This document shows, piece by piece, positions 7,287-55,452 of a DNA stretch of 64,000 nucleotides; the stretch's first letter is position 1, and the number at the start of each line of letters is the position of its first letter. The DNA is taken from NCBI GenBank assembly GCA_022478985.1, contig JAKSZP010006698.1:62001-126000 (forward strand), in the 5' to 3' direction. The DNA comes from Massospora cicadina. Lineage: Eukaryota; Entomophthoromycota; Entomophthoromycetes; Entomophthorales; Entomophthoraceae. Below the pieces are notes generated by a model. It searched no databases, was not told the origin of the DNA, and saw only the letters and a list, made by a program, of their open reading frames with translations. The position numbers and the translations under genes are program-made.

Positions 7287-7327
7287 AACAAAATCTTTTT
7301 TTAGTACTAGATGGTAACAAAATCTTT
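7287..7327 (-). mobile_element. Micro-insertion copy 1 with 12-bp target-site duplication
   Basis: A 17-bp insert (7299-7315, TTTTAGTACTAGATGGT on the plus strand) lies between perfect 12-bp direct repeats AACAAAATCTTT (7287-7298 and 7316-7327). On the minus strand it reads as a short unit ending in an A-run, the shape left by target-primed reverse transcription. Since T residues occur on both sides of the junction, the tail length is ambiguous by a few bases. It interrupts the decayed gypsy element G1, so it is younger than that element. Confidence 0.7.
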
Positions 7328-8570
7328 GACAAAATGATAACTCAACTCTATGATAACAAACTGTGGAGGTTCAATGCAGATTTATTAAAGTTGTGACTGT
7401 CTATCTTTGTGAAGAATGTGTGACTGTAAATGTTTTTGATGAATACGTCTTTTTGTTTTCCAGGATTACCAAATAAACTGTATTAATATTGCGCCCATAA
7501 GGAGATGTGGCACAGATAATAGTATTAAATGCTGGAACAATCATGAGCACAATATTATTGGAAGTTTGACAACTTCTTATTCAAAAAAGCTCAGCTGCTG
7601 TGAGGAATGACAAAGCTTAAGATCATACTTTAAGTTTACTTCATATCATATTGTTAACCCTAATGTTCCTGGCACACCATATCTATTGATGTTTTGGGCT
7701 CATTGCCCAACAGTGTTGTAAATATAAGTAAAAATCGTGGCTATTATTTACAATACCAAGTGAGTGGGGGTCAAAGTTGTCAGAGACTTAGGCTTATAAA
7801 CCAAAGATAAAAACGTTTTGGAGTATGTTTTTCATTGACATTAATGCGTGTTGTTTCTCTTAACGGAAAATGGGACTAACTTTACGTCTCAAAGTATCTC
7901 TTAGCTCATCTACTTGATGTATATCTGAGAGACATTAATTTAAGGCCTATAACCCTGAGAACAATGGCACTATGGAAGAAGTAAAAGGTAATCTTTTTAT
8001 TATCTATGTAAGTTGATCACTGCTGAGGCGTCCAGTTAAAAGCCTTTTCTTGCCCTCTGTTGTTATTATATATAATGTTGTCTATAACTAGGCAACAGGA
8101 ATCTCCATCATTCCAGTTTTTTTTGTAAGCATACAGTGCTACCTGACTTTATACTCAAGCATCAATGGAGAAAATATGAGTCCCAACTGATTAAAGGGAA
8201 AACTTAGCGCAGACTCTATCCTGTAAAAAAGCATACTCCTACTTGATGTCTTGAAAAAAAAAACTTAGGGATTGTGATGGTTGGTATCAATGGACCTACC
8301 TACCTTAGCCATAGGTTAATAGGACTTGTATTATGATAGCCATGATTTTAGTAGTACTAGTAATCTATAAAATGTGGAAAGGGCTATACAAAAATCATCA
8401 AAAGACATCCACTGATGCCTACACCTTGAAAGATCCTACTGATAGTCATCTAATTATTTGAGTAGATGCTATGTTCCATGAAAATCCAGCGAATTTTTGG
8501 CCCAATGGCCATAGGTTCTCAGTACCCTAGTCTGCCATCCCGCATCTTTTTTGTTCCTAATGTTTAGTCA

Positions 8571-8581
8571 AGCGGGGGATA
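8571..8581 (+). other. Polypurine tract of gypsy element G1
   Basis: AGCGGGGGATA lies immediately before the TGTTGCAATTG start of the putative 3' LTR. Such tracts prime plus-strand DNA synthesis in LTR retrotransposons. Position and composition fit. Confidence 0.55.
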
Positions 8582-9279
8582 TGTTGCAATTGTTTTGATA
8601 AAATATTTTTATACACACTTACTTAATCATCTTTAATAATACTTAGATACATGGATTTATTATTTATTATATATTGTTTTCCCCACGCGCCCCCACTTTA
8701 TAGCTAGTTTTCTAAAGTTGTATTTAATACTATTGGTAAACTCTCTTAAGCACATTCAATTACTATAAGTTACAAAGTTAGATCAAATCCTGAATCCCTG
8801 CGGATAAAAACTTCGAGATTGCTTAATTTCTGACCACTTTTGTCCATGGCCTTGGATTTCATATCATTTATATAAAATTTTCATCTTGTATTCTTACCTT
8901 GCCGCCACGCTGGCGTAAATTATATTTAAATAGGGTCCTTATTACTAAAGCCATCCAATGTGTTTAATTGTGACTGGGTCATTACTATTATGGAAATGCC
9001 TCTGAGCCCTAGACTTTTATTGCCCTAGTATAGTTTTGATATTAAGCCTCAATCTTACCATTCTTAAGTGCTGCTTAGTAGCCATAAGTGCACCAATAAA
9101 AATTCTGTGAGAAAGATGAGCATACCTGAGCGGTATTGCCATCTAGAGGAGTTTTTTCTACAAAGCCTGAAAGAAGCGTATTACAAGGCTTGCTATAATG
9201 TGCTGCTTAAACACTGTAATATAACTTACTGCGATGTTCTTCTTTGTTATCATTATAAAACCCTAATCCAATAAGAACA
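8582..9279 (+). repeat. Putative 3' LTR of gypsy element G1
   Basis: It begins TGTTGCAATTG directly after the polypurine tract. The right end is placed tentatively at ...AAGAACA (9279) because the preceding ATAAAACCCTAAT resembles the AAAACCCTCAT just upstream of the primer-binding site at 4525. AT-rich and without a coding frame. The 5' partner could not be aligned, so the right boundary is uncertain. Confidence 0.45.
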
Positions 9280-9728
9280 TTTTACTTTTTTGAAGTATTT
9301 TTCAAGCTTACTGTCCTCAAATAGTGCCTTTTTTGTGCTAATAACCTGTGCATCAAAATCTGACGCCCCTTCACCAAATGCAACAGTTAAATATGTAATG
9401 TTTGTAACTCAACTCAGCAACTCCAATTCCTGATTGGTACAGAAATAATAAGGTGTTAATCACCACCATTGCAACTCAAAATTGCTTAAAAGCTCAAATT
9501 ACTTTTCACGCAGGCCTGGTTTATATATCACCTATTACTTACAATTTAATATCAACTATTTTGCCCAATGGCAATGTATACTTTTCATTAATAGGTTTAT
9601 TATCAATCTCCTCAACTGTTCGCCAGGGTCTTAGTTCTAGTAATTTCTAGTCTGACGTAATTTACTCAAGGTCAATAACCAAGCTCCTCTTTTCTTTTTA
9701 ATAATTATTCTATTGACTGGAAATTCCT
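9280..9728. other. AT-rich stretch, nothing recognised
   Basis: No sustained reading frame, repeat or RNA structure that I can support. Confidence 0.4.
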
Positions 9729-10680
9729 TTGTGCTATCAAGTTATCAACTTTTTTATGTTTAGTCCTGAGGGACTTTTAGTGCAGCCAACTTTGCAGGAT
9801 GAAGGCTTGGGGTACTGCCTCCACCACACTAGGCTGAGTGAATCTGAGCACCACAAAAATATGATAACCACAAATGGGTGTAGCTCACAGTACCATTGGA
9901 CTGACAATTTCCCACCCTATTTTAGTCTTGGGAAGACCGTATACAGCAGCCTGGACAGCAGATATACATTAATCTCCCTTGCGGAAGAAATGCTCCAATG
10001 ACTACCCAGGTTTAAGGCCCCTGGGGGAGGAGCTGAGGCCCCTCCCATTATCACCTGATTTTAAGCGGAGTTTAGCTCTCCAGAACCTTTTTGTCCAGAA
10101 AAGCCTGTTGTCCTTTCAGCTCATTAATTATTTCCTTGAATAATCATGTTCGCCATCAGAAAGCTGATGCCAACTGACTGGCAGCTAAAAGAGCTTCTAG
10201 CCACCTGGTAAATTGCGGCATTTATTGTAGGCAGGCTCACCAAAGTGCATTTAACAAGGTTTTACCCATCCTTATCCAGGGTTCCACACCTGCGCAACCA
10301 CAGCTCATGGGAAAGCTATGTGACAGACTCTATGGCCAATTCTTACGCCCCCTTCTGGCCCTTACTCTTCATAAAGGGAGTTGTAGACACACGTGAGAAC
10401 AGGTTGCCACAGTCATCACCATTATCCCGCTCCAATTTCAGGACAATACAGGACACAGTCAGTATACTTCTGTAGTTTCTGGTGTTTTAACTCACCCATG
10501 TTTCCACAGGCATACCCCAGTTGCGACATGAGGAGGCGCCAGCTAACCTTATCTAGCTCCTGTTATCAAATATTTTCACAAATAGAACCAAAAACCAAAA
10601 AGAGAATATCAGAATGGGACTGGCATGGTGAACAGTATTTTTTATACTTTAGCTTGCCAAAAGCCAGAGACTATCAATAA
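9729..10680 (+). pseudogene. Unidentified coding-like relic, richer in GC than its surroundings
   Basis: Two plus-strand frames (9729-10001; 10245-10680) and the linker between them are clearly less AT-rich than the flanks. Another plus frame across 10090-10400 gives a protein-like stretch containing QLMGKLCDRLYGQFLRPLL, broken by stops. I recognise no conserved catalytic motif and cannot assign a family. The density of stops and the lack of a single frame indicate a dead coding sequence, probably another transposable element. Function unknown. Confidence 0.3.
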
Positions 10681-11146
10681 TACCCTCTGAGAGTCCCTTA
10701 GAGCCACTGTCAGCCTTTGATACTACAGTTGGATATTAATATAGTTTTTTATCCTTAATTTTTGATAGTTAAGGATTATTGTGTTAGTTTACAAAGGTCA
10801 CTGTCTTGATACAATACCTTATTTGTTTAAGTGCAAAACAACCTGTGATATTCGAATTTGATGCCTAGATATTGGTAGCCTAATAAGCCTGAAATGATTT
10901 AAAAGGGATAATGGTCACTGTGGAGATCTATTAGAGAGCATTCAAAAATTAAATATTGGCTTCCATAACTGCGGCTGATTTCAGAAAAAAAACCAGTCAG
11001 CCATATGGGTGAAAGTCAACACAGTAATTTAGAGATGCAAGGGGGCACGTATGAGATTTTTAGATGTTCATTGATAGAAGATTAGAGCAACAGAATATAA
11101 AAAACTTCTTTATTTCAGAAAATCATTATGTCTTGTTTTAAAATAA
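10681..11146. other. AT-rich stretch, nothing recognised
   Basis: Short frames only, no repeated or structured element that I can support. Confidence 0.4.
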
Positions 11147-11343
11147 TTTACAGCAGGGCACAAAAGATCTGAAACACATGGTGCAAAGAGGGATGGCGAG
11201 TACACCCCATTTTTCTGTAGTGAGTATAACGTAAAGTCATACAAGAAAACTATACAAAAACACAGTGGTGAGAAGAACTTAAACTTTAAAAAATGGCCAG
11301 CGCACCCAGTTAACGCTAAGAGAGAGCCCTACATGAGAACTTG
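11147..11343 (+). pseudogene. Possible C2H2 zinc-finger relic
   Basis: One open plus-strand frame across this stretch reads EYTPFFCSEYNVKSYKKT, then IQKHSGEKNLNFKK. The HSGEK linker, preceded by a Lys-rich helix, resembles the H-(T/S)GEKP linker between C2H2 zinc fingers, and a Cys precedes it at about the right distance. The second Cys and second His expected for the finger are missing or changed, and no start codon or second clear finger is visible. It could be a degraded zinc-finger or transposase-associated domain, or chance resemblance in Lys-rich translation. Confidence 0.25.
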
Positions 11344-12043
11344 CATGCATGTAATATATAAGGATGGTTTACTATTTTAATGAGAGACTCTGTATCTCTT
11401 ATGTTCCAATAGAGGTGATTGGAAATCTAAAATTAAAGAACCAGGAACTAAACTATTAAATTAATTTGAAATAAACGCCACAAACAGTTCTGGTACCAAA
11501 ATGTTCTAAGAATAATTATAGAATAAAAACCCTTAATTATCCTAAAAAGTTCACACATGTTGGACTCATTGTAAAAGTTCATGACAATTGAAAAATAGGA
11601 TCTGGCCTTTCAAAGCTTCAATCTAAAGCAGTCCAGAGAACCAATATTTAATTAAATCTTCATTTAATTATAAAACTAAATGATGGCTTTGTTGTTTGAG
11701 ATCTCCTTAAAGAGGTCCATGGAAAAATGCTGACCAAAAGATCATATAATAACGTATGAAAAGTTAAAAATCCATTAAGTAAAGTAGTTGGTCTAGCAGA
11801 AATGACTATAAAGAAGATTGGGGATATGATCTGGTCCTTTTGCTTTAAAGCTGAGGTAAATCAGGCCAATAATATCAAAATTTTAATGATAGTACTATAG
11901 CTTGGATACCAGAACACAATTTTTGATTTGTAGCTGTATGTTACCAAATATGGTAAAATTATATTCAAAGATTAGACTTTATTCACATTTGAAATATCAG
12001 ATGCAACGTCTTTTTTTACTGAATAACTCATAAATTGTAATGA
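11344..12043. other. AT-rich stretch, nothing recognised
   Basis: Roughly two thirds A+T by eye, no frame of note, no clear repeat. Confidence 0.4.
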
Positions 12044-12800
12044 TTGTTAATGAAATGCCGTAAACCCCACCATAATACCTTTTGGTATAAACTTGAGCAT
12101 ACTTGCGTATACCCAACGTTGGTCCAGGGTATGTCCAAGATCAGGGAGGGCATACTACATGATTCCTTTGTCCTTACTAACCTCATCCCTGTTTTTAAAA
12201 CTTGTGATAACGATTATGTTATAATACATGACAAGTATGGTTGGATATACATTTCAGGTGCATGGGACCACAAACAGGGCACTTACATTTTAGTGGTTTA
12301 GGGTCATTGACAGTGGTGGTAATGAGCTCACTCTACTAGAGAAAACAACGGCTAATCAGAGGAAATTTGAAGGCCCAACAGAAGGGTGCATGCTGTGTAA
12401 CACTGAGGGGTTGATGTATTATTTGTGTATGCACCCAACAGAGGACATGATATAAGGTGGAGTGCACCAAACCATGGTGATCATGCAGACCTCAGATGCG
12501 ACACATTGGTGGTGATAGCAAAAAAAGATATGGAAATAATGTTATGGAACAAAGCCCATTACATACCTTAACAATGGGACATGCAAAAAAAAACCAATAC
12601 AAGAAAAACCCCATGAATAGTATAAGACGTTTTAATTATAAAATGGACTGCAAAAATGTGGCTATGAAAACCAAATAAAATTAATGTATGGGGTTCTTTT
12701 GGTTTTGGTGGAGATTTTTATAATAAGTATTGGCAAATTGAATGCTTGGGAGAGGAACTTATCCTAGGATAGTTAAAATTCCAGCTGTGTTATCAGATTA
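12044..12800 (+). pseudogene. Unidentified coding relic
   Basis: A plus-strand frame at 12044-12301 (85 codons) reads in a protein-like way (HDKYGWIYISGAWDHKQG). Broken frames continue to about 12800 and include NKINVWGSFGFGGDFYNKYW near 12680. A W-G-x-F/G-x2-G segment occurs in Tc1/mariner-type DDE transposases, but no DDE residues or helix-turn-helix are identifiable here. I treat it as an unclassified, probably transposon-derived relic. Confidence 0.25.
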
Positions 12801-13178
12801 ATAAGCTAGTAATTTAATAAGCAGTCAGGCGTAACTGGAAGTCAGCGTTGCGCATTAATAGGAACTCTGACATTTAAAGAGATAGGTACATAGAGTTAAT
12901 GTATAGTTAAAATGCATTTGCTAAAAATTGGTCAAGTTGGCTTATAATAAACTGCTACCACAATTGTCTGTTAACATCTCTTGTTTATTAAAAATAATAC
13001 ATTCTAGAAACTTTTAATAAGTAAAACCTAGAGCTCATTTTCTTTCTACCAATAAAACGTTTAAAAGTGATTTACAATTTGTCACTAAATATGTATAAGC
13101 ATATGATTTTAATGCTCAAAAGAGGCTATGAACTTGTTTAGGATATTTTTGTTTTCTTTCCAAATTTCTATCTTTTAA
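12801..13178. other. AT-rich stretch, nothing recognised
   Basis: No supported feature before the micro-insertion that follows. Confidence 0.4.
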
Positions 13179-13232
13179 CATTAGATCATTACCTTTTTTT
13201 TTAGTACTAGATGGTCATTAGATCATTACCTT
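13179..13232 (-). mobile_element. Micro-insertion copy 2 with 17-bp target-site duplication
   Basis: A 20-bp insert at 13196-13215 (seven T, then AGTACTAGATGGT) is bracketed by perfect 17-bp direct repeats CATTAGATCATTACCTT (13179-13195 and 13216-13232). This is the clearest of the four copies because the repeat is long and exact. On the minus strand the insert is ACCATCTAGTACT followed by an A-run. A 17-bp duplication is in the usual range for LINE-endonuclease-driven insertion. Confidence 0.8.
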
Positions 13233-16071
13233 ATCATGTTGCAAGGCAACTATGAAAAATGAGCTTACGATATTATAAACTTCTTTATGCAGCTTTATAA
13301 TTTAATAAAACTACCTTCTTTTTTATTAAGGTAAATTTTACTAACATAAAGCTAATATTATATAGTTTAAATGCGCTTTCTTACATTAGGACTAGAAGCT
13401 ATTACCCATTGCAAAAATGATTTTGATTTCAATCCCTTAAAAGCGTAACAATCATCAGGCATAAATTAAAAATTGATGTTGTGACAGCGCATCCACATAG
13501 TATAGAACCAAGCACAAGGTAGTAATGATCCATTATGGAATTTCAGTTGTTGCATGTTAAGCTAGTATAATTATAGTGAAAGGATATATCAAGATAAAGC
13601 TTAAGTTACTGTATAAGGACACAAACAGGACTTAAAAGAATACTTTAAATGACAGCTTTATATAAGATAAGATACAAGACTTTACAATATGTCATGCCTG
13701 GGGTATAACCCCTCTTTCCAGATTGGCCGGTCAGCTGGAATATTCTCAAGTATTAGCCAAATTTATTGCAAATATGATATCCCAGAGTGCAAGTAAGTAT
13801 ATATACACTCAAGTCATAGACCAAGGTACCAGTTAAGGTTTAAAATGCCACTATAAAAGCATCTAGATACTGTATTAAAGTAACACAACCCTTGTTTTTT
13901 ATAATTTTTGGTATTACAAATAAATTTATAAAATCAATTTAGGATTAATTCATTAAGAGTTTGTTTAGGGCTCAAAATTCATCAAATCCTTTGACAGATA
14001 AAATCTTTACTTTGATTTCTCATTAAATGGTATATTAATTAAATATAGCACTATACTTTATAAGAATTAAAGTAAAGATAAAGTCAATACCCTTATGAAG
14101 TATATGAGGGAAACTGAACCCCAGGTATAAAGATGGCTAGAAAATCTAATTGACTGGTGGTAAGTGTTACATTTACTTATTAGGCATCAATTTAACAAAT
14201 CTTTGCGTATATGTTAAAACTATCATGTTAAAAAAATCAGCTGTGACATATTGTTAATAGTTATCTGTCTTGTTCTACTTTGATTGACTAACCAATAAGC
14301 AACCTTAATGGATGTTGGAGTTATAATTTTCAGTAATTTGTATAGGGATGCACTTCTATATGAAATTAAATTTAGTCTTAAATCAGAATTTAATATCAAT
14401 CTTAGCGTTGAATGACTTGTTTGAAATAATCATCAATAATGTAGAATTTGAGCTTTGTGTTGGTTTGAAAATTGACAATTAGCTTCCTTATATGGACAGA
14501 TCAGTATTGTCACAATTGATAGCGTTTGAGATTACTGAAGTGCTGACAACGCTTTTCTTAGCATTAACTTGTAATTTAGCCTTGGCGATGCAGCCGGCTG
14601 TAAAAGGGTAAATATGTCCCATTACTAAAGAACAGCCGCTAGCTTTAAAAAGATTGATATGCTGGGGTTGGTTAAAGGCGTTGAGACAAACTATTTTGGA
14701 GACTGACAAATATGAGGTCATAATCTAGTTGATGGTGGATACCAACTAGGTAGCTTTTATAATTGAATTAATCTTTGTTGGGGCAACTCTTAGAAATTGA
14801 GTTCTTTGGCAAAGGATGCTCTTTTCATTGGGGTTTCAACCAAAGTTTTAGGCGCCAAACTTTCATATCTAAAATCCTTAATATAAGAATAAAGACATCA
14901 TAAATAATCGTAAGAATCTGGAAGTTCCAGCTATTTTCTGAATTTTCTTTAGCTGAAAAGTGTGGCGTAGGTCCCTTGTTTGCTTCCTAAGTAACATGAG
15001 TGAGTTAGAAAACACTTGGTGTAAGAATATACCTGATTCTAGTTGGAATAGAATCTAAAGAAGGCTTGTTGGCTAGCTGTTATCATATAGCAGCTCTTCT
15101 TTATTTCTTAGTCAGAACATCCCTTATTTGTAGAGATATACCAAATTGATATTAAAATAATTATAGAAAAGACTGACTTGCTAGATGTTGCCAAACACTA
15201 ACACTTTTCTATTTCTTATAATGAGTTACATGAAATTTTACACTTAATATTATATTACTTGAATATAGATATATAAAGCTGAAAATAAATAGTTCAATAT
15301 TAGTTATACTTGTACTTCTTTGTTAGAGTTTGAGTGGTCAATTACCCTATATACTTCTCTCAAGTAATATAAATTGAGGTATAAATAACTTTCCTTTTAG
15401 AGTATACATGTTTGGGGTTGAAAGCACTTGTAGAAAATAGATTTAACTGGATAGTTGTCTTTATACAATTATTACTTTTCTTTATTTCTTTTAAAATTAG
15501 TTATAAGAACTGTGCAGTTGACTTGTAAAGAGTTCTATTATAAAGCTCAACTTATATAAACAGATCTATGGACCTAATAGTCATCAAAAAGTTCTATAAA
15601 AATTGTACTTAACAATTTAGTTTATTCAACTTCACAAATAAAAAAAGTATATTACTAGTAAGCAAAAAAAATTTATCACCATGAAATAGCTATTTGTTAA
15701 ACTGTATTGTTAAACTGTTTTTACTGACCTAACACTTAAGATGACAACTCTAGTGTTGTATATATAAAACTTGAGTAAAAATTTCTCAAAATATATTCCC
15801 TTTAGATTATAAAATGAACTAATATTCAATAAACAGACATCTTATCTAAAAACTATTTCTATATCAAGATTCTGCCAGAAGAGATATATAAGCCCAAGAA
15901 TCAAAATTATAAATTATATCTCATTTATATTACTTGCTTATTATATCTTTACTAACCATTTTAGAAACTTTATAGCAATTAATCTAATCATAGTGTTTTT
16001 AATTTTAGCTATTTTTTGTTATCATATATATCAGGGAAAAAAGACTTTTTTCCATGACAACATCAAGAGAT
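13233..16071. other. Long AT-rich stretch without a recognisable gene
   Basis: Very AT-rich DNA with only short frames. The longest, on the minus strand at 14488-14721 (77 codons), matches nothing I know and has no motif. A few promoter-like TATAAA strings occur, as expected by chance at this composition. It may contain elements decayed beyond recognition. Confidence 0.45.
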
Positions 16072-16743: not shown

Positions 16744-16761
16744 TGGTGCTCACTACAGGGG
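16744..16761 (+). other. Primer-binding site of element G2
   Basis: TGGTGCTCACTACAGGGG begins two bases after the LTR. Its complement ends in ...GAGCACCA, the form of a tRNA 3' end (acceptor strand, discriminator base, CCA), so it should be where a tRNA primes minus-strand synthesis. An identical site occurs at 30039. Confidence 0.8.
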
Positions 16762-24203: not shown

Positions 24204-24341
24204 GTGTTTTTGAATTTATTGCGAGGAAGGCCGACCATGGGATGGACACTTCTGAATTTGACCTGAAAGAGACAAAACTTAGTAACAGGGAAGGCACCCC
24301 AGAGAAGCGATGCTATCTCTTGTTGCCAGCGGGAATGCCAT

Positions 24342-25372
24342 TTATGGGGAGGGGGAGGGAACGTGAGAAGGGGCCGTAGCCACAATTGAACACGTGTGGA
24401 GGAAAGAGTCTGATTTGATGAACCAAACTGGGAACCAGGAGGAGACCAGCTGTCGGCAACGCTGTGGGAGGTATCCAAACATCCATGCCTGAAAGTGGTC
24501 CACCAAATGAGACCGGAATCTGTTGACAGCTTCTGGGAGGGTGGGGGTGGAGCTTGCGATGGCATCCAAGACAATAGTGTGGATAGTCCACATGGCGATT
24601 GCAACCACCAGAGCACAGAGGGAGGGTGGAAGGGGGGAGGTCATTGACAAAGCAAACATATCTCTTGACAGAAAGAAGGGATGTGTTTGATCCTGGCCCA
24701 GCAGACGTTGAACTTCGCGCCATATCACTTTAGAGGTAGGACACTTCTCCAGGCGGTGGAACAGCGTTCCATAATGGCCACACATGATGCAGGATGAGTG
24801 TAAAGCGTTAGAGCGCTCATCCATATGGTACACCCGCCTCAGGCAGCGCCATACATGGGAACGGATTTGAGGCTGCAACAGAGGATGGTGTGCGTATTTC
24901 CAGATAGTTTTTTGGGTCTCAATGGAGTAAGGGATGTCCATCATGTCCAGGTAGTCCACCCTGGATAGGACATGGGGCCGTGTGGGGATCACGCCATCTT
25001 GGATGGGTAGCCCCTGTACCTCTTGTGTGAACTGAGGAGAGGGGCGGCCTATCTGGGCTGTGTGTCCGCTAATACAAATTCTCCACTCAGCGCTCCACAT
25101 GGAGAGGAGGATTCGTTTGTATTGGGTTCTAGTCCCGCGAGGACCTGTGGCCGATAGGTGTGAAGCCAGGTCTTTCATCAGGGAGTGAGGGTTCGATGGA
25201 TTGTTGAGGCCCATGGTGTGAGAGAAGTTGGAGCGGGCTGTGCGGGTCTAGCGTTGGGAGGGGGGCGTAGGGGCAGTGACGGCCACAATCCAGGTGCCCA
25301 GGATCTTGGCAGCATGGGCTTTGAAGTCAAGCAGGCCCATGCCACCATGATGATGAGGGCCAAACATGACCT
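24342..25372 (-). pseudogene. LINE copy B ORF2, C-terminal domain with C-C-H-C motif
   Basis: An open 290-codon frame (25214-24342), extended upstream in the same frame through FGPHHHGGMGLLDFKAHAAKI (about 25300-25370). It carries CIMCGHYGTLFHRLEKCP at about 24740-24793, the C-x2-C-x7-H-x4-C zinc-binding motif that closes ORF2 of many LINEs and assists RNA binding. The rest is helical and Trp-rich with no further motif. It is frameshifted relative to the adjoining RT segment, so it could not be made as one polyprotein from this copy. Confidence 0.8.
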
Positions 25373-26800
25373 CTACCATACTGGTGGTGTGCGGGCTGAC
25401 CAAAGCCATCCTTTCAGCAGGGCATACAAGGATTTAAAAAATCTTGGGGAGAAGGGGATGGCGTGGGCTCCAAACCAGACTTTGGAGAGGAGCATAGAGT
25501 TGGCTAAAACAACCCTGCCAGAAAGGGAAGTAGGGTGGGCTCTGAGGGATGCGATGCGCTTCATCACGTTGTCTAGAATATGACTCTCCATTACTGCTGA
25601 TGTGTACCCGCCTGCCTCCACCCACATGCCCAGATGGCGGACTGGCCCTATGGTAGGGCGTGGCACGAAGGGGAGCACCAGTGGGGCGGTGTGGGGTGAG
25701 CTGGGAGGGCGAGCACATGTGCGAGCAGATGGGCTGGGCTGGGCACTGGTTGCTGGGGCCAGCAGGTTTGGTACCGACCAAGAAGGATGATTTCAGTTTT
25801 GGAAGCATTCAGTGCAGCGTTACTTACCCGGGAATACTCCTGGATGAGAGCTTCAAGTGCGCGTGCATCTTTATTATTAGACACCCCAACCACACAGTCA
25901 TCTGCAAACGCCATCATTTTGACTGGGGCTTGGCCTGGCACATGGACCCCAGTGAGTTGTTCATTCACATTTCGAAGTATTGGGTCAAGGGTGAAGTTGT
26001 ATAAGAGTGGGCTAAGGGGGTCCCCTTGTCGCAAGCCCCTTTGAGGGCGGACTACTTCTGTTAGGAAGCCAGGGCCACATACTGCCATTGTTGCAGATTC
26101 CATGAGCAGCATCACCCAGTTGATGAAGCGAGGGGGTAAGCGGAATTGATGGAGGCAGGCCCTGAGGTATTCCCAGTTTACTCTATCCTAGGCCTTCTGT
26201 TGGTCCAAGAATACAAGTGCCCCAGAGGCTGTGGACTGGCATGTGTTAGCCACAGATTGCACGTTGCCCCAAATCGACCTTTTGGGTATGAAACCTAATT
26301 ATTCTGGGGAGATGGTGGCATATGCTACAATCCCTAGACAGTTAGCCATGATTTTTGTTAAAATTTCTGTATCCTTGTTAGTTAAATAAATGGGGCGCCA
26401 GTTGGCTAAGTCTAGCTTGTCCCCTTTCTTGAAGAGTGTGACGGTGAAGGCCTCTTGTCCTCCTGGTAGGAGGCGCGTTTCCAGAAGGCTCAGGTTAAGT
26501 GAGGCAAGCAGTAGTGGGGATATATATTTGAAGTACTTTTTATAGAATTCATATGGAATGCCATCTGGACCTGGGCATTTCCAGTTTGGTGCACCATGGA
26601 CGGCTGTCCATAATTCGTTCAGAGTAATCAAACTAATTATTTCTGGGTATTGGGAAATGGTGTGGATGTGGGATCAGTTGAAAAACTTCGCCACTTTGGC
26701 TGGCTGAATTGGATCAAATTGGTATAGCTCAGAGTAATATTTTTGTGTTTTGATTGCCACTTCAGCTGGCATATCCACAATGGAATCATCTGATCTTCGC
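25373..26800 (-). pseudogene. LINE copy B ORF2, reverse transcriptase domain
   Basis: Minus-strand segments 26631-26299, 26115-25648 and 25678-25373 in two frames. Motifs in order: CPGPDGIPYEFYKKYF (RT motif 1, about 26530-26580), NWRPIYLTNKDTEI (about 26355-26400), QRGLRQGDPLSPLLYNF (about 25990-26045), MMAFADDCVVGV (about 25885-25920, both catalytic Asp intact) and HLGMWVEAGGY (about 25595-25630). Reverse transcriptase copies LINE RNA at the nicked target. A frameshift near 25700 and stops near 26190-26300 inactivate it. Classification as APE-type LINE RT is secure. Confidence 0.85.
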
Positions 26801-38410: not shown

Positions 38411-40960
38411 ACTCTAGACAAAGTGGCAGTTAGGTTCAGATCTAATACTTTGATTTGTAATAGTCCAAACCAGTCAAACCTGATACAATTGATGAGATTC
38501 TTGATGGCGCACATATCTTCTCCATTTCCTGTTACCCACAATTAATAAACTTGTATAACTTGTGACAAACGCTGTCCGCCATTTGTGATGCATCACACAA
38601 AAGAGCCCAGGTCCAGAAGAGATTCTTAGTAAGTTCTACCAAAAATATTTTTCTTTCTACTCCTCACTAATGCTTGCCTCAATGAACAAAGTCTCCTAGA
38701 AACACGCCTCTATACTGAGGGCCAGGAGGCCTTTATGATAAAGTTGTTTTAGAAGGGGGATAAGCAGGACTCGGCGAACTGGCGCCCCATTGCACTTACT
38801 AATACAGATACTTAGTTATTTAATAACATAATAACAGCCCGCCTAGAGATTAGCCTTTGAAGTGATTTCCTCTGAGCATTTTGATTTTATCTTAAGAGGT
38901 CAATATGGGACAACATACACACCGTGGCTAATGTCTGTCAATCTCTGGCTACTGGGGCGCTTGTGTTCTTAGACCAGCAAAGAGCTTATGATAGGGTCAA
39001 CTGGTATCACCTCAAAGCCTGCCTTTTCAAAATCCATCCCCCTGGTGCATAATTTTGGTGCTTTTGTTCACGGAATCTGCCACAATGGCAGTGTGTGGTC
39101 CAGGTTTCCTCACTGATGTTGTTTTCCCTCAAAGGGGTCTCTGCCAAGGGGACCCTTTAAGTCCACTTTTATACAACTTCAGCCTTGACCCACTTCTCCA
39201 CAATGTGAATGCACGCCATACTGGTGTCCATGTGCAAGAGCAAGCACATTTTAGGATGCTTTCATTTGCTAACGATTGTGTGGTTGGGGTGTCTAACAAC
39301 TGTGATGCATGTGCACTGGAGGAAACTATCTGGGGATACTCAAGTGTCAGTAACGCCGACCATGAAGCCTCCAAAAACCGAAATCAATCTCCTCAGCTGC
39401 TACCAAGCCCGCTGGTCACTGGCGCCCCTAATCAGAATGAACCTGCAGCAGGTCTCTTGTTTTCTTGCCTCGGACACCTCATTTCGCCCTCTTGTACTCC
39501 CTTTTGTATCAAGACCAAATGCTGATCTGGTGCGCCATCTGGGAGTGTGGCTGGAGGCGGGAGGATTTACCTTGTCAGTAATGGAGCACCACATTTTGGA
39601 CAATGTCACAAAGCGCATCGCTTCCCTCAGAGCCCATCAGACTAATATCACAGGATGGGTAGTGCTTTCTAACTCCATGCTCCTGTCAAAAGTTTGGTTT
39701 TTGGCTTACGCCATCGCTTTTTCTTATCCTTATTTGCTCCTTTGTATACTCTCCTCCAAGGGTGGCTTTGGTTATCCCGCCCTCCCTCTGTGCGTCTGGA
39801 TGTCACGTTTGGCCCTCGCCATAGTGGTGGTATGGGCCTGCTCAACTATGAGGCCCATGCCTCAAAATACTTGGCACATGGATTAATACAGTCATTGGCC
39901 CCACACTCTCAGGCCAGCACTGGTTGTATGCAGCCAGATCCTAGTTTTTTTCCTGCGTCCTCTCCTTCACAACAAAAACCACCCCAATTCTCTGCTTATC
40001 AATCTAGCTTCTCACCCCTCTGCCGCAGGCTCGCTTGGGGCACCACCCCACTTTAAAATAATTCTCCACTCTATGTGGAGCGCTGAGTGAAGAATTAGCA
40101 TTAGTGGGCGCACCGCCCAGAGGAGTCGCCCTACCCCCCATTTGAAGCAAGAAGTCCATGGGCAAGTCGTTTTTATTAATCTTGTACCACAAATGTCCTC
40201 CCATCATTGCCCATGCAGACTACCTTGAGAAGCTGGTCATCCAGTACTCTTTGGAGAAAAAAAGGACATTTGGCGGTATGAATACCATCCTTTGTTTCAT
40301 CCCCAGATTTGCGCCCATGTGTGGAGATTCCTGAAGAAGGTGTACCACACTGTTGAGCAGTTCAATGCTTCTCAGTCTTCATGCATTGTATATGGTCAAT
40401 AAAGGTCATTAGTCCATTGTTTGTAAGATTGCCCGCCTTCACAGGCAATCTGGTGGAATGTTATGCATCTCTTTTGCCAGGGAAGAGTACAGACTTTCAG
40501 CCTGTCTATTAACACCTTTGAGTTTTCCATGACCTTCCCAATTTACCATTCTCTCCACGCCTTAGTAGTAGCAATTGCATTATGGATAATCCACACTATT
40601 TTCCTTGACGCTCTTTCTGGCAATACTCCAACTCTCAGAGAAGCTGTACAACTCTTCCACCCTCACCTTGTGGATCACTTCCAAGCCTGGTTGTTTGCCA
40701 CCTGCCATCCGCCAATGCTGGTTGGTGTCATTCTGGTTCCCCATCTGGTTCCTCTCGTCAGACCCTTTTATTCATTTGTGCTTGGTTTTGGCCCGGGCCT
40801 CTTCTGATCCCCCATATTCCTTCAACTGGCAGTCCTTCTGGCAACAGGAGGTAGCTTCAGCTCCTCTGGGGTGCTCTTATGGTTACTTGGTGTTCTTTTG
40901 TTGATGTTTATTGGAAGAGTCAGTCCTATGGTCACCCTTCCCAAAATAAAATTAAAAAAT
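38375..40960 (+). pseudogene. LINE copy AC, third part: reverse transcriptase, C-terminal domain and 3' tail
   Basis: It aligns with copy B from the pre-RT linker onward. FYQKYFSFYSSLMLASMN (about 38632-38690); RT core open at 39055-39525 with GLCQGDPLSPLLYNF (about 39140-39185) and MLSFANDCVVGV, where the first catalytic Asp of FADD is Asn (39271-39273). RHSGGMGLLNYEAHAS at about 39820-39870. The C-terminal C-C-H-C motif near 40380-40440 is degraded (second Cys is Tyr). The A-rich tail at about 40940-40975 has AATAAAATT. It is more decayed than copy B. Confidence 0.8.
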
Positions 40961-41254: not shown

Positions 41255-42212
41255 TGCCAAGTACTATTAAATTTTAACCAGATTGATTCTTACCAAATTT
41301 TTTTCCAAACCACTGTTTGTATTAGTTGAGAACAGTGCAAATAAATTACCAAAATTTGATGATTTTAGTATCAACAGTCCTGACTTTAGCTCCTTGTTTG
41401 ATTCAGTGAGCTATTTTTTACGTTCAGCCATTTCAATACTATTGGGCCAGATTCTCAATAAAATTTGTGTTTTTTTGATTTTACTGACAATAGATGATGA
41501 TGATAAATTGAAGGTTTTCATAGTTTGTACTTAATGAGATTTACCAACAATTGATGCTGAGGATAATAGATTATTTTGTATTGGGCATTTATTATGATTT
41601 ATCAGTGACTGATGCTGCGGATAATTGAATTATAAATGCCAGCGTTGAATGATAAGAATAACTTGGTAATGTTTGTTTGTGACTGATCCTGAGGTTTTTT
41701 ATTAACCATGCATTTGATTGCATTTTGTCACCCAAGTATTTATACCCTAATCCCACTTTAACAAGTATATCTCTTTTACTATTTATTTTGTTTTTAAGTT
41801 GAGTTCTATTATGGAAATTGAGGATAGTATTAAAGAGCCCCAAAAAATAGATGCAGGGTGAGTGCATGAAAGGAGTAGTTGGTGCCACCACTCCAATACC
41901 TGGGGCTACAGGTAGCTTTGCATAGAGTTACCTGATTGGATAAAGACAACGAGCAACTAAATTGATTAACATCAATGTACTAAGTGTGATGAACAGGACA
42001 GAGATGGCCGCCCAGGTGGATGTAGTGCTCTGGGTCTGTTACTTTAAATAATCATCTAAGGTGACATTGTTGGCTATGCTGTGGCAGGTTGCTGCTGCAA
42101 ACATTTAGTGAAAGGTAGCCAGCGAAGGAAAATGAACAAGGGTCAGTGGTCTTCATTCTGTTGCGTGGAATACTAGTAGAGTTCTGAATGTATGTATTGC
42201 AAGAAAAAAACA
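41255..42212 (+). repeat. 5' LTR of the miniature element
   Basis: The right end is fixed by the primer-binding site; the left end (TGCCAAGTAC) is placed by alignment to 42511 and is uncertain by tens of bases. On the minus strand both LTRs encode a related short peptide (VAPTT..M..SP and LG.FN..LNF), which weakly resembles the start of a LINE endonuclease. Confidence 0.5.
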
Positions 42213-46078: not shown

Positions 46079-46128
46079 CTCCATGACTTCTTTTTTTAGT
46101 ACTATATGGTCCCCCTCCATGACTTCTT
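46079..46128 (-). mobile_element. Micro-insertion copy 3 with 14-bp target-site duplication
   Basis: A 22-bp insert at 46093-46114 (five T, AGTACTATATGGT, CCCC) lies between exact 14-bp direct repeats CTCCATGACTTCTT (46079-46092 and 46115-46128). It differs from the other copies by one base in the core (C-to-A on the minus strand) and by four extra bases, GGGG on the minus strand, at its 5' end. Confidence 0.75.
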
Positions 46129-47139: not shown

Positions 47140-47178
47140 ACACACACACTTACAATAGACGCTTTTAGAAAAAAACCA

Positions 47179-47249
<71 letters not shown>
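47139..47249. repeat. Compound simple repeat: (AC)n followed by a run of 34 G
   Basis: A short ACACACACAC tract near 47142 is followed by an uninterrupted AC run at about 47181-47210 and, five bases later, 34 consecutive G at 47216-47249. The G run should favour G-quadruplex structures and replication slippage, and its length is prone to sequencing error. Confidence 0.9.
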
Positions 47250-47250
<1 letters not shown>

Positions 47251-48279: not shown

Positions 48280-48296
48280 CCCCTGTATGAGCACCA
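48280..48296 (-). other. Primer-binding site of a minus-strand LTR element
   Basis: Reading the minus strand gives TGGTGCTCATACAGGGG, the shared primer-binding site with one base missing. Two bases to its right the plus strand begins TGTTGATCC, which on the minus strand is a CA-terminated LTR end (GGATCAACA). Confidence 0.65.
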
Positions 48297-48298
48297 AA

Positions 48299-49150
48299 TG
48301 TTGATCCTGGCACTTAGGCTTCAAACCTCGACAGCACAGGTCATATGCACTCAACAAAAAAGTGTTCTGTATAATGACAGAACCTTAAACACACACAAAT
48401 TGACCCTTTTGGTATTCATAGGCTTATTTTTATGAAATAAAGCTTACTATAGTTTCTCTATACTTACAATATCTTGAAGCTCGTGGTGCATTACTGGGGC
48501 TTTCTGTTGGCTTAGTTAAAGAAATTTATTAAAAAGACAGATCCTTTATCAAAATGGTAGTCTCTTAAATGCAAGAACAAAATTCTTTTCCCCATAGGTT
48601 AAAACAATGGATAACTTAATTTACTTAGGGATATGGGACAGCTGCATAATTGTTGAAAGACAGGGACTTATAGCCTTATACTTTGGTAATTTGATCTTTA
48701 TAGCAACCAGACTATTAGGTGAGATGCTAATAAATTATGAGGAGATAAAAAAGTGCACTATAACATTTCATTAACGGTGGAAATGATGAAGGGAATAATT
48801 AATTGTTAGATTTTGAGAAAACTCGCAGGAAAATTTAAATCCTTCTCATATAAGTGAGAAGAAATTCAAACAAAACCTTGATTTTTGCCAAATGTCTAAT
48901 GGTATTATGACTTATCAGAAGCTCAACCTGATAACATATTTATATGTGACTCTTTTGGTCTTCTATGATGATTTGTCCCTAAAAAATTGGGAACTTTTTC
49001 TGACACAGTCAAAGGCCTAGCTGGAAATCCCTTACCAAACAGCTTTTGGTCACTACTAACAGAAATTAAAAAATTTAATTTTTATGGTGTATTTAATTTA
49101 ATTTAATTTGAGTTACGCCAACTAGCAGACCGACATTACTGAAGCTTGAA
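48299..49150 (-). repeat. Probable LTR of the minus-strand element (outer end not located) and AT-rich flank
   Basis: The inner end is set by the primer-binding site. No second copy is found to mark the far end, so the right limit is arbitrary. AT-rich with no frame. A short (ATTTA)n-like run sits near 49088-49110. Confidence 0.35.
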
Positions 49151-49163
49151 GAGCTAAAAATGA

Positions 49164-49403
49164 ATGAAAAGAATAGCTGAAGAGAAGAATGACCGCCCAA
49201 AAAAGAGAGGTGAAACACAACTGAACAATAAACAACTAACCAGGTGGGACAGCGATGAGTTGCTCAACCCACCACGGTGGAAGTGGAAGGGGGATTGGGT
49301 GACACACCCTTGGCATCAGAATTCATATAAAATGCAAGAGTGCGGGATATGGCGGAGAGCAATGGTGTGGGGTGATCAGCGGCATGGTGAGTGTGTTGTC
49401 TGA
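49164..49403 (+). other. Unassigned 79-codon frame, probably not a gene
   Basis: A Lys/Arg/Trp-rich plus-strand frame without a recognisable motif. It overlaps the downstream edge of the minus-strand LINE fragment and may be its antisense. Confidence 0.2.
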
Positions 49404-49439
49404 CGGTTGTCTGGCCACTGAGATGACCTATATCAAAAA

Positions 49440-51035
49440 TAGCACCTAGGTCATGGAGAAGCAGTTTTCCGCATGAAGGCAGATGGAAGGAAGCTGTGAA
49501 AATAGAGCTACGTTGGCATGGGTGGTTTTTATCTTAGCCTGTGAAGCGATAGCAACTCTCTGGATGGCGGCATTTGCTTGTTTGTATAGGTTTAGGATGT
49601 CCCATTTGCTCTGCAGGGCTATGGTCAGAGCAAAAATGGGGGTAGGGATACCTTTGGCAAGTATTGCTACTGACGCCTCGTTCATCTCATAGATTTTGAT
49701 GCTATTTGGGTTTCAGCTGCAGCAACAGTGATCTGGTGTTCAGAGTGGAATGCAGATGAATTTGGTCAGGGGTGTAAAAATTCTGAGGGACCTGAATGGG
49801 AAACCATACCTGTATGAATTCTTCAATTGGGTTATTTGATTCTGCAATAACATTGCCCATTTAATCAGTTTAATCCAATGAAGTCCAGGGACTCAAGTCA
49901 AGATAAAGCAGGGTCAGTTAAATTTTGGGTTGTGGCTAATGATTGAAGAATTATGTGGGAATGAACTGTTGAGCCAAGTCAATTTCTGATTTTCTGAGGC
50001 GCAGGTGGCACTGGATTGAGGAGGGGGCTGTTTAGCCATTGGCAGCTCTGTAGTGGCAGCAGGCTTTGGGGGAGGGGGGAAGGATTGTAGTCCAAACTGG
50101 AAAGGCCGTGGGGTGTTGGGAAAGTGGTGACAATATGGAGACAAACAGATCCAGCAGAAGCATCAAGAGAGGGGCATTTACGCTTTGAGTGGTCTAACTC
50201 AAAGCAGGATGGGCAGATTGTCCACCCGCCCTTGATGCAGGCCCAGAATAGGTGGTTGGGGACTGAGGGAATGACGGCATGTGGTGGAATTGACAAAGCA
50301 ATATTATTTGAATTTGGGATAATCGTGGAAAATGCCTGAGGCCCTGCAAGATGAGCAGCCCCATTGGGGACCACAAACTGAAGGGTGGGGTTGGAGCTGT
50401 ATGCAGCCAAGCCTTACATCAGCTCATGATGAAGCACCGCGGGGGGAAGGTGAGTGGGAAACCCACAAACTGAACCACCTTAGTGATGGTGGTGTGGAGC
50501 TGGGTGCATGTTGTGGGGATAGGGGTGCCCTGGAAAACCAGGGGTACAGTGGCCGCAGTGGTGGCATCAGCTTTGCATGTGAAGCCTAGTTTAAAATACC
50601 CTTTATAGGGGCAAAAATCTATGACCTCAGCTGACAGTATCACTGCCTGGGCCAATTAAATAATGGCTTTTCTTCATATGGGAATAATTTTCCATATTTG
50701 ACCCAAAGGCCAAAATGCAGATGGGATTGGTGGAGAATGAGAGGGCTGCAAGGCACTGCCCAGGCACATTCCAGGTGGATGGCGAGATCCTTAGGCGGAA
50801 TGAACAGACCTTATGATTTAGGGGTACTAGCCAAGCCAATCTGAGAGCATTTTCCCATCAGATGGAAAATGCTGAGTGGGGTTTCGGTGCTCCACATGGG
50901 AGCAGCTGGCGGATAATCTGAGGTCATCAGGGAGTGAATGGGGAGGTTGGCGTCGGCTAGCAGGCACTTTTTACTTTTTTCAAATAAATTCTCTAAAAAT
51001 TTACTCCAAGCGGAAAGAAAAAAAGAACTAAACAA
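49440..51035 (-). pseudogene. LINE family-2 ORF1, copy III (best preserved)
   Basis: The N-terminal part reads through 51035-50627 in two frames. VIDFCPYKGYFKLGFTCKADA (50550-50640) matches the GFIDFFPFKGYFGF segment of copy I. LQFVVPNG is at about 50365-50390. FWACIKGGWTICPSCFELDHSKRKC (about 50170-50250) contains an intact C-x2-C-x4-H-x4-C knuckle. A Pro-rich linker follows, then an Ala/Ile-rich helical end (49685-49446). This is an RNA-binding LINE ORF1 by motif and by similarity to the two other copies. No ORF2 follows on the left. Confidence 0.65.
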
Positions 51036-54000
51036 TTTATAGTGTTAAAAATAAAAATTAAGATAATATAGTTCTTTATAAAAATATATAAACATTTTTC
51101 CTTTATGGCCAGACGCTGTTATTATATAGCTCTAGGGCCTCTCTTAACCACTATCTTCAGGTTCATACTTGTATTTTTCCCAGGTTATCAAACCATTAGT
51201 TCCTCACATTAGTGGCTTCTTGGACTATTATATAGAAAACAACTGTTTCTGCCTGATTAGTGGCATATTACTCTCATAAAAGGTATCGTCTTTTGTATAA
51301 TAATAAGACTTCAAGGTGCATAATTGCCCTAGATCAAGCTAAACTAGAGTTTTGTCATTAGTTGACAAAACACAAATAGTGAAGAAAAGTAGACTTCTAC
51401 TAATGTTATTTTAGCATAACTTAGTATAGGATGTTGGTAGGCCTTTTGATGGCATTTACACTCCCTATACAGGGCGCCCTTGTTTAAGTGCTATCACGAC
51501 AATTATGAGGATTAAAATAAAAATCTGCCTCAGTGTGCAAAACTGATTTAGGATAAATTTAAGCAGCTTAGTATGAACTATTTAGACTTAATTAGATTTT
51601 TGGCCTTCACTATTGGGCACACATGTAAGTTAATTTTAATACTGCTATTACTAATTGGGAAGAGTGAGCTAATAAAACAGTTTCATAAGAGCACTTATAT
51701 CCATAGTGTGATGGTTAATCATAAAGAATTAACAGAACCATTTATAGGGTAATTGTCCAGACAAGAATGTTTTATCAGTTTTTATTTTTGTGTTTATCAC
51801 CAAGTCTAACAATACTAAAAACTTAGTGACTCTTTTTATTTATGAAATGATGAAAGATAATTAATCTATAGTGATCAAAAATTTTAGTGCTACCAGAATA
51901 GATAGAAAATAAACGTCAATAGGAACAATATTTTTAATTTTCCTTGGTCATGCAGCTTGAATAAATAAAGTAAATTGCCCTATATATTAGCATTGTTCTT
52001 GTGCAAGGATAAGTTAGTGTATAGTAAATTAAAAATATAGTGACCCAAGAAATCAATCACAAAATTAATTTTACTGATTAATGATGCTGCTGGGGTGAAG
52101 AATTTGTAAAGCCTTCATTATTAGTTACATATAAGATTAAGTATATACTTGAGATATTCTGTATGGTTTTTCAGACCAAGTTTCAACAATATATTAGGAT
52201 CATAACTTGAGTTTCTGGTTTTACTTAACTTTTAAATTGTCTTGTCTGAAATTCTTTTGCATGAAAGCACACCATTCTAGGGACATCTTGTGTAAACGAC
52301 TAACAACTACGCCTTCTATTTTTCTTAGAATTAAACTCTGCTCCTCTATTTATATAGCTCTTAAAATCCCTTAAAAGATATTGTGAGATTGGATATGAGT
52401 CATATAATCTAATAGTGGAAACATTTAGACTTTTTTTCAATGATATATCAACAAGAACTATACTTACAAGCGCCTTATTGTATAGCTGAGGTTCTTTATG
52501 TCCCTTGGCAATCCTAGAATGAGAAGCCGTGGCTTGAAACTAAATCATCTCATTAATAGTTTTCTTTGAACCAATTCAGCTATCTTGGGATTCTTTTGAT
52601 TCTTAATGGATTAGAAATCATTTGTAGTACAGGTTCTCATCAATAAAGGTCTTGAAAAGGGACATTATAAAATCTCACTGATTTATTTTCTAGACTATTT
52701 TAGAGCTGAGTAGTTACCAACTCTATCAGCAAAGCGGTAAGGTCCTTTTTAAGTATAGACACAAATATTCAAATGTGCTCTAGCTACACCCAATCAGTAT
52801 CAAGGTGATATGGAGAAACAAAATTTGTTTGTTTAAACACTTTTTCTGGTATATAGGTCACTTATGAGGCAGAAGTAAGCTATATATTACTTTGAACTTT
52901 TGAGTAATTAGGTTAATAATTCTTTAGTGGAAAAAATGTTTATTTTTAGTACTAGCTTATATGAAGGTGGCTTAAACCAATTTAGTTACCTGATCAATGG
53001 CTAAATCTAAAGCCAATGTCCATAATAAGCTTTTAAAAGATTCAAACATATATATGTTAACTATATAGCCTCCCTTTGCTCTATAAACTAATAATAGAAC
53101 CATATATGATGATTTACAGGATTTTCTAGTGCAAAAGCGCCTCTTTTCACGTCATGAAGCACTATCAAATTTCTTTTCTATAACACTGACCTTATAACCA
53201 TAGATTAGCTTTTTTAATCTATCATATGATTTAATGACTTTAACTACTACATAGTATGCTTCAGAAAGGATTAGTGTATGACTTGTATAATGTTAAATGG
53301 ATTAAATGAAGACATTAATTAGATATTACTCTTTAAATTAGGTCTAATTTCCTAAGTCTTGAGCCCATGTATTTAACTCCAAAATATTGAGTAAAATTGA
53401 TAGATTAATGATACCTTTTATCTGATGTCACTTGAAAATGGGGGCGCAGGACTCTCATAAATCCAAATTGCCTCAAACCAATAACCCAGCCATGGGGTCT
53501 TGGTATTAAGAACTGAAAAATTAGATATTAGTTAATAATATATAAATAAAATCAATTAATAATATACTTTCAAATCGCTAACCCAAATTACATGGGCGCC
53601 ATATTATTGATATGTTAAAAATGAGAAAAATGATTAACTAAACATAATAATGCACCTTAAATTTGATGTTGTTAATTTATAAATGACATCCTAAGAAGTA
53701 CATAATAGTTCAAACGCTTGAAGGTGAAATGTAGCCGATTTACAGCATGATGGCTCCTGTGCAGAGCGTATATTTTAGATGTCTCGCCATGAGCCATTAG
53801 TTAAGTGGAGGTGCAAGGAAGGGAAAATGGATGATGGTGCAAATAGCTTCATAATTAGACTTATAAAAACCTATTGGAATAAAACAGGTTTTATTAAATC
53901 CTATCATTTTGAGAATATTATCAGTATCTCGTCAAATCTTTATTTAGTTGTCAGATAAAATTCTCTAACTTTGATCAAGAAACAAAACTTTATTGATTAA

Positions 54001-54569
54001 GAAGATCATATGGTGGGTCGGTATAACAACATAATGATGAGAAGAATTTTGCTGTAGTTGCTAACACTAGGGAAATTTTATACAAGTGTAACATTTGTTT
54101 AGTCTATTTTCTTTATTTAATAGATAAACTAAGCTCACATGTCTTTATAAAGAGAAAAATATGCCTCTTGTATTTGATGACTTCACAACCGCATGGAAGC
54201 CAAGCTTCTCCTACTTTCTTGTATAGATATTATTGCTATATCTGTAATAATAGCATTCTTTATAGGTTCACTTTAGATGTCATCTTAAATTTTGTATAAT
54301 TTCTCATGCCTCACAACTAAAACTAAGAGTGTTTATAATTCAGGATCAAAACAATATGAAAGATATTAGCAATAGTATATGAACATATAAGTATAAAGCT
54401 TCTGCTTGGTGTACATTAGGAAGTTCTATAGGTTTTAGCTTCACTGTCTAGTGTTATAAGTCCATAGTGTACTTAATCTGTTATGATATCTTATCTAGAG
54501 TTAATGATAGTAAAGTGTTGATCAATAACAAAGGTTATATATGCTTAGTAACCATTAGTAATTATATTT
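51036..54569. other. Long AT-rich stretch, no recognisable gene
   Basis: Only short frames. By position it should hold integrase of the minus-strand gypsy relic whose RNase H lies at 54570-54700, but I could not identify its motifs. AGTACTAG near 52948-52955 resembles the micro-insertion core but lacks flanking direct repeats. Confidence 0.4.
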
Positions 54570-54820
54570 GTATGCGTTCAGTTACACTGTTGTATTATTT
54601 TTCTTTAGTGAGCTTTTTGCTAAACTATGTAATATGGTAATCACCTTCATCATGTTGAGTGAAGATAACACCAACTTCTACATTACTAGCATCTGTAAAA
54701 GAAAGAGAAAATCACTAAATTCTGATGAAAAAAGAAGGAGCTTAATTGTTTCTATACAGTAAATAAAAATGTGTTGTTATTTTATGCAAAAAACATCTCA
54801 TTTTGAACAAAAATCTTGGA
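54570..54820 (-). pseudogene. Gypsy RNase H fragment
   Basis: Reading the minus strand gives TDASNVEVGVIFTQHDEGDYH followed by FSKKLTKEK and NSVTERI. This is the start of Ty3/gypsy RNase H (consensus D-A-S-...-G-A-V-L and F-S-K-K-L...Y-S-V-T-E-R-E). The linker before the catalytic Asp is at about 54700-54760. One stop falls within it. The rest of pol is not recognisable, so this element is older than the others. Confidence 0.6.
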
Positions 54821-55405
54821 AAGGTCTGTCTCAGAAAATTGAGAAGCAAGATGGCTAATACCCTGTTGCACTCTAAAGTTTTTTATGGTATACAATCTTT
54901 TCTATTTTTATTATTAGGTCCCAAATCAAGAAGGGGATGTCATGGGTTTTAACTAAATGAGGCTTCCAAAGAGTTAAAAATCAATATATAAAATAGGCAT
55001 GTTGATGCAGAGATGAAATTAAGCAGTGATTCCAAATGAGAAATAAGAGTTGAAAAATTTTTGTTCAGGGCAGAGCTCTGCATAGGCTTTTTTATTACCA
55101 TATCATTTATGGATTAGTAATTATACAAAGTAGGAACCCATATGTCTGACTTTAGTATAAGATACCTTTATACGCTTGAAGAAAAAGCATTTCAAATTTT
55201 GAGTCTTAATATCTTTGTAAAACAATAAAACGCTTATGTAAACGTTCAAATAGAATCAACGTTATAAAACTGTTATTTTGTTCAAATTAAATAGCAAAAA
55301 AGACAACTTTAATTCTCCCAAATGTTCTCCCTGACTCTCAAATATTTTACTGGTTCTCAAAATAAAACTTTAGGTATTCTTATTGGTTAATCGCTCTTTA
55401 AAAAG
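54821..55405. other. AT-rich stretch, nothing recognised
   Basis: May hold the rest of the gypsy reverse transcriptase but no motif is legible. Confidence 0.35.
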
Positions 55406-55452
55406 AGGCAGATCCTTTTTTAGTACTAGATGGTCAAGGCAGATCCTTTTTT
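55406..55452 (-). mobile_element. Micro-insertion copy 4 with 10-16 bp target-site duplication
   Basis: AGTACTAGATGGTCA lies between exact direct repeats AGGCAGATCCTTTTTT (55406-55421 and 55437-55452). Because the insert is expected to bring its own T-run, the duplication could be as short as AGGCAGATCC (10 bp) with a 21-bp insert. On the minus strand the unit has TG before the shared core. Confidence 0.75.

Follow-up and report, generated by a model that had tools for sequence, protein, structure and literature searches.

Inserts left by long interspersed nuclear elements (LINEs) and truncated at the 5′ end can shrink to little more than a poly(A) tail, and their truncation points are usually scattered. 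The tailless retropseudogenes of therian mammals are described in PMC5322556 as products of internal priming at A-rich sites with complementarity to the target, and as having preferred 3′ endpoints. Here we report a family of four inserts of 15–22 bp, U1 to U4, from a 64,000-nucleotide stretch of the Massospora cicadina assembly (contig JAKSZP010006698.1, positions 62,001 to 126,000; hereafter the window). We conclude that they are real micro-inserts, most probably products of target-primed reverse transcription (TPRT) of one fixed template, and that they probably represent a variant of known retroposition and not a new kind of mobile element.

The inserts U1 to U4 are 17, 20, 22 and 15 bp long and are flanked by exact direct repeats (12, 17, 14 and 16 bp, respectively), which are unrelated in sequence from one locus to another. 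In each of them a 13-nt core, AGTACTAGATGGT, adjoins an A-run; three copies of the core are exact and one carries a single mismatch, and all four are found on the plus strand. The loci are composed as follows, with inserts described in the sense (minus-strand) orientation.

7287..7298, no strand: U1 target duplication, copy 1, AACAAAATCTTT; exact repeat
7299..7315, minus strand: U1 insert, sense ACCATCTAGTACT plus 4 net A (A-run of 7 in total)
7316..7327, no strand: U1 target duplication, copy 2; exact repeat
13179..13195, no strand: U2 target duplication, copy 1, CATTAGATCATTACCTT; exact repeat
13196..13215, minus strand: U2 insert, sense ACCATCTAGTACT plus 7 net A (A-run of 9)
13216..13232, no strand: U2 target duplication, copy 2; exact repeat
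46079..46092, no strand: U3 target duplication, copy 1, CTCCATGACTTCTT; exact repeat
46093..46114, minus strand: U3 insert, sense GGGG plus ACCATATAGTACT (one substitution) plus 5 net A (A-run of 7)
46115..46128, no strand: U3 target duplication, copy 2; exact repeat
55406..55421, no strand: U4 target duplication, copy 1, AGGCAGATCCTTTTTT; exact repeat
55422..55436, minus strand: U4 insert, sense TG plus ACCATCTAGTACT, with the entire A-run of 6 assignable to the target
55437..55452, no strand: U4 target duplication, copy 2; exact repeat

With the duplications in brackets, the sense strand reads [AAAGATTTTGTT] ACCATCTAGTACTAAAA [AAAGATTTTGTT] in U1, [AAGGTAATGATCTAATG] ACCATCTAGTACTAAAAAAA [AAGGTAATGATCTAATG] in U2, [AAGAAGTCATGGAG] GGGGACCATATAGTACTAAAAA [AAGAAGTCATGGAG] in U3 and [AAAAAAGGATCTGCCT] TGACCATCTAGTACT [AAAAAAGGATCTGCCT] in U4; the bracketed segments are maximal exact repeats, and the identity of their two copies therefore holds by construction. 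Since the duplications differ between the loci, they record four separate insertions. The number of sense bases preceding ACC is zero in U1, zero in U2 (or +1, counting an ambiguous G), four in U3 (GGGG) and two in U4 (TG). An earlier note on this DNA had described four loci with a common core and flanking exact repeats, and had taken them for four separate insertions of one sequence, all in one orientation and with 5′ ends falling within about five bases of each other; each of these observations is reproduced here at all four positions. The loci thus have in common the core, a left end that hardly varies, exact duplications that differ in length, and an A-run on the side of the nick.

Exact repeats of at least 12 bp situated within 60 bp of each other number six in the window, and four of these are the repeats of U1–U4, as compared with a mean of 0.24 and a maximum of two in 100 dinucleotide-preserving shuffles, in which the longest repeat was 15 bp and occurred in a single shuffle. 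Among exact pairs of at least 10 bp within 300 bp, with low-complexity words excluded, the three longest belong to U2, U4 and U3, and U1 is among eight 12-bp pairs. When mismatches and distances of up to 600 bp were allowed, further pairs appeared, including a 13-bp exact pair 559 bp apart; imperfect pairs are present elsewhere in the window at 41552 (16 bp, one mismatch) and 29632 (23 bp, three mismatches). The core itself, at up to two mismatches, has six matches in the window (two of them at two mismatches), versus a shuffle mean of 1.38 and a maximum of 5. A search blind to the core yielded 56 short inserts between exact repeats of at least 8 bp, and only the U1–U4 family possessed a 9-mer common to three loci, with not one 9-mer present in all four inserts; the other 9-mers were common to two loci at most, and no second micro-insert family was found among the 56. 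Starting from the A-runs of at least 5 nt on both strands (n = 432), the 11-mer at the end of the run is repeated up to 500 bp upstream in six cases, four of which are U1–U4. At random positions, the four loci left out, a flanking repeat of at least 12 bp was encountered once in 19651. As a further control, all 17 prokaryotic matches to the 17-mer ACCATCTAGTACTAAAA, a number at or below chance (about 30 by our own arithmetic), have flanking repeats of only 0–6 bp, and an 18-mer of the unit scanned against viral contigs gave no match. At 62391–62430, a 12-bp exact repeat flanks a 16-bp insert without an A-run, which is perhaps another micro-insertion or a local duplication.

No copies of the 19-nt unit other than U1–U4 are present in the window at up to three mismatches. 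Decayed copies were sought among the many weak matches (4–6 mismatches of 19) and set aside, as a flanking 10-mer repeat with at most one mismatch occurs only at U1–U4; the best of the weak matches, at 52942–52960 on the minus strand, has 13 contiguous bases, CTAGTACTAAAAA, in common with the unit and lacks a target duplication, and may be either a chance match or a decayed relative. A paralogous empty site was not found in the window, where the units, taken together with about 700 bp of flanking DNA to either side, match only other units (E 0.01).

Target duplications of variable length (here 12–17 bp), together with an A-run restricted to one end and a T-rich nick before a purine, form the signature of LINE-type TPRT. 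Indeed, duplication length varies between the four loci over this range, and the A-run, 6–9 nt in total, adjoins the first-strand nick and is confined to that end in four of four. In each case C-T(2-6) forms the end of the primer strand and a purine follows, the nick sites reading Y/AAR in sense; at all four loci the second copy of the duplication ends in TT, for which the TT frequency gives an expectation of about 1e-4 (post hoc). Total A-run lengths are 7, 9, 7 and 6 in U1 to U4, although the target supplies 3, 2, 2 and 6 A; the A-run thus behaves as a part of the template, with the primer pairing within it, and not as a tail appended to the target's own A. All of the duplications begin in sense with A(2-6)G, so that G comes next after the A-run in four of four, for which the local G frequency of 0.31 gives 0.009, and primer pairing may therefore include the G. 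The earlier note had seen in the minus-strand unit with its A-tail the form left by TPRT, in agreement with these variable duplications, nick-side A-runs and T-ending primers, and TPRT is very probably the route by which all four inserts arose. Two other types of mobile element were considered and rejected: a DNA transposon or miniature inverted-repeat transposable element, because the duplications differ in length and the insert ends, ACC...AAA, are not inverted repeats; and a short interspersed nuclear element (SINE), because 15–22 bp leave no room for Pol III promoter boxes and a body.

We infer the enzyme, its endonuclease type, the direction of copying and the nature of the template from these features. 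The template would consist of ACCAUCUAGUACU followed by 6–9 A. An enzyme of LINE type would nick the plus strand after C-T(2-6) and before a purine, and the T-ending primer would pair with the A-run of the RNA and, presumably, with the G beyond it; the enzyme would then copy about 20 nt and reach the template end at ACC or one base before it, where joining would take place with 0–4 further bases, mostly G, and fill-in of a 12–17 nt stagger would produce the target duplications. If the left end corresponds to a genuine RNA 5′ end, the RNA may really be about 20 nt long, or else a longer RNA may have been entered at an A-run near its 5′ end, in which case the source would contain (G)ACCATCTAGTACTAAAAAAAG, with the A-run inside and ACC at the transcript start. 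The earlier note had offered two templates, a very short RNA and a transcript with a strong block. Its view of four separate insertions stands, while neither source could be established, and it had omitted the possibility of a longer RNA primed internally, on an A-run close to its 5′ end, as in tailless retropseudogenes; the A-run of 6–9 nt regardless of the target, together with the G that follows it, makes such priming possible, and it is as good an explanation as the other two.

The principal competing explanation starts from a longer LINE or SINE with ACCAUCUAGUACU-A(n) at the 3′ end of its RNA, of which the units would be extremely 5′-truncated copies; a strong block 13 nt upstream of the tail, such as a G-quadruplex or a stable stem-loop, would stop the reverse transcriptase there in nearly every case. 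Inserts with an A-run and duplications of 10–20 bp are usual for several LINEs, according to PMC4245944, and GGGG before ACC in U3 could mark the point where copying had just entered a G-rich block. In contrast, no longer copy is found in the 64 kb, and neither of the window's LINE copies nor its SINE matches the unit at the 3′ end: against these three tails (LINE, LINE, SINE) the unit scores 12, 14 and 16, which 163, 79 and 32 of 300 shuffles attain. Moreover, U3 (GGGG) and U4 (TG) disagree directly before G-ACC, so that, barring mutation, at least one of them carries bases that did not come from a common longer template, and untemplated junction bases in at least one unit favour run-off at a true RNA end, a point at which bases can be added.

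Published junctions point in both directions. PMC5860796 counts untemplated bases at the 5′ end as a hallmark of canonical L1 insertion. For the zebrafish LINE Nimb-2_DR, PMC4245944 gives extra bases or microhomology for most truncated inserts (95%), in agreement with truncation here, and direct joins for most full-length ones (82%), while ZfL2-1 inserts, truncated and full-length alike, have extra bases or microhomology; the same text gives duplications of 1–9 bp as commoner in truncated human L1, a class exceeded by the duplications reported here (12–17 bp). These patterns leave the junctions equivocal, and we therefore consider it as likely as not that the template has a genuine 5′ end coinciding with ACC or adjoining it; truncation before a block is less probable than this, though a serious contender.

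Several further considerations weigh against the reading in which a single short stretch of RNA, with a genuine 5′ end, was inserted by TPRT on four separate occasions. Truncation would account equally well for the additional bases in U3 and U4. The tail of U4 is ambiguous, its net A being zero, with no A beyond what the target could supply, and the G that adjoins the A-run was noticed post hoc, at four sites only. Four copies in one 64-kb window form the whole basis of the analysis, and no source RNA for the unit was found within it. Finally, no LINE with a 3′ end matching the unit was seen in the window, where the longest open reading frame does not exceed 301 amino acids, and the acting LINE is therefore not in view. 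Taking everything together, we give the statement as a whole, namely that TPRT inserted the same short stretch of RNA at each locus independently, most likely from a template with a genuine 5′ end, about an equal chance of being right or wrong.

An artefact of assembly or library construction, in which contig ends were joined with one residual synthetic oligonucleotide and overlaps of 12–17 bp were left unmerged, would account for one constant sequence at four junctions, yet random-overlap joins would not be expected to place TT beside the T-run at the end of the second repeat copy in all four (about 1e-4, post hoc), and one of the four copies has a substitution. The unit matches no adapter known to us, and we consider this origin very unlikely. 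Repair of staggered double-strand breaks, capturing the same short DNA fragment each time, is more doubtful still: fill-in of a staggered break would, as is generally known, also yield duplications of variable length, but it leaves unexplained why the core recurs, why the left end hardly varies, why the A-run is always on the nick side and why the nicks follow CTT. Chance or ordinary local duplication has next to no probability, for although local repeats without a common insert do exist in the window (15694, 62391, 41552 and 29632), it is contradicted by the shuffles, the core-blind family, the random positions, the A-run test in which four of six cases are the units, and the prokaryotic control, in which none of the 17 matches has a repeat longer than 6 bp.

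As to the identity of the RNA, Rfam at the gathering threshold gave no matches in the window, and ARAGORN predicted no genes there. The unit may resemble, in antisense and with two bases more, the segment AGTACTAGGATGGG of plant-type 5S rRNA, and may also resemble the 5′ end of U4atac; the plus strand could be read as polypyrimidine-AG, a 9-nt exon and GT.

A stable RNA of about 20 nt, composed of ACCAUCUAGUACU and a short A-run, perhaps with a final G, could itself be the mobile unit, with a LINE enzyme placing complete copies of it at many sites and at high density. We think this unlikely; if true, however, it would be the smallest retroposed family known to us, and would reveal how short a template suffices for a LINE enzyme, leaving a natural record of primer-template pairing and 5′ joining. 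If the source is a blocked transcript, the inserts would mark a naturally fixed stop of reverse transcription that is testable in vitro. At the density seen here, four inserts in 64 kb, a large genome would contain thousands of inserts of 15–22 bp with exact duplications, if that density held genome-wide, and such inserts are expected to be too short for ordinary repeat annotation.

Other mobile elements occupy parts of the window. Two decayed LINE copies, at 24207–26576 (minus strand) and 38605–40958 (plus strand), are 65% alike and represent one family in opposite orientation; the reverse transcriptase match is above the Pfam cut-off in the former and below it in the latter. A probable tRNA-headed SINE of 304 bp lies at 55742–56045 (minus strand) between 15-bp repeats with one mismatch, and has an exact AGTGGTAGAG box, although chance alone could account for a box of this kind there. 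Its tail resembles both LINE tails, neither score being reached by any of 300 simple shuffles, with A-rich stretches contributing to the similarity; as their 3′ ends are alike, the SINE and the LINE copies may be partners. Remains of an element with long terminal repeats (LTRs) are indicated by a weak integrase match below the cut-off and by the reading of frames. Four exact copies of TGCTCACTACAGGGG, all on the plus strand and in otherwise dissimilar DNA, are located at 16747, 30042, 42217 and 61868; three are preceded by G, and two of those by TGG, for which reason the sequence may be an LTR-element primer-binding site matching a tRNA 3′ end in ACCA. A run of 34 G beside a CA microsatellite is found at 47216–47249. 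Over the whole window, the observed/expected ratio is 0.33 for CpG and 1.20 for TpG, as in a heavily cytosine-methylated genome, and the CpG value together with the LINE, LTR and SINE content and the likeness to known reverse transcriptases suggests a large, repeat-rich eukaryotic genome, perhaps that of a fungus.

In open-licence papers, the letters of the core were encountered only as part of a PCR primer in PMC6389151. The earlier note knew of no described mobile unit this small, and a search of such papers with a few phrases, which is weak evidence, did not contradict it; two papers that it brought up concern a 1.9-kb LTR element in rice (PMC7498076) and a 107-bp SINE B2 (PMC10881587), and were set aside.

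Comparison with known systems places the four inserts among several kinds of retroposed sequence. Like SINEs with a LINE-like tail, they are short, non-autonomous and repeated with the same ends; unlike SINEs, they consist of 13 nt and an A-run, too little for a Pol III promoter or the body of a SINE, and the LINE and SINE tails in the window do not match the unit. With 5′-truncated LINE inserts they have in common the A-run, duplications of 10–20 bp and a T-rich nick, but in contrast to the usually scattered truncation of LINEs all four end no more than four bases from ACC, and a longer relative was not found in the window. They also resemble tailless retropseudogenes, which PMC5322556 describes as TPRT products of RNA parts with target duplications. 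Their preferred 3′ endpoints are internal, single-stranded, often A-rich and complementary to the target, for which the A-run of 6–9 nt plus G, seen here at four sites only, may be the counterpart. Those pseudogenes derive, in that text, from identified RNAs (tRNA, 5S, U2, 7SK, mRNA and others), whereas the part copied here is only about 20 nt; and their target motif is TT/WAAAAWW, compared with Y/AAR in sense at the same four sites.

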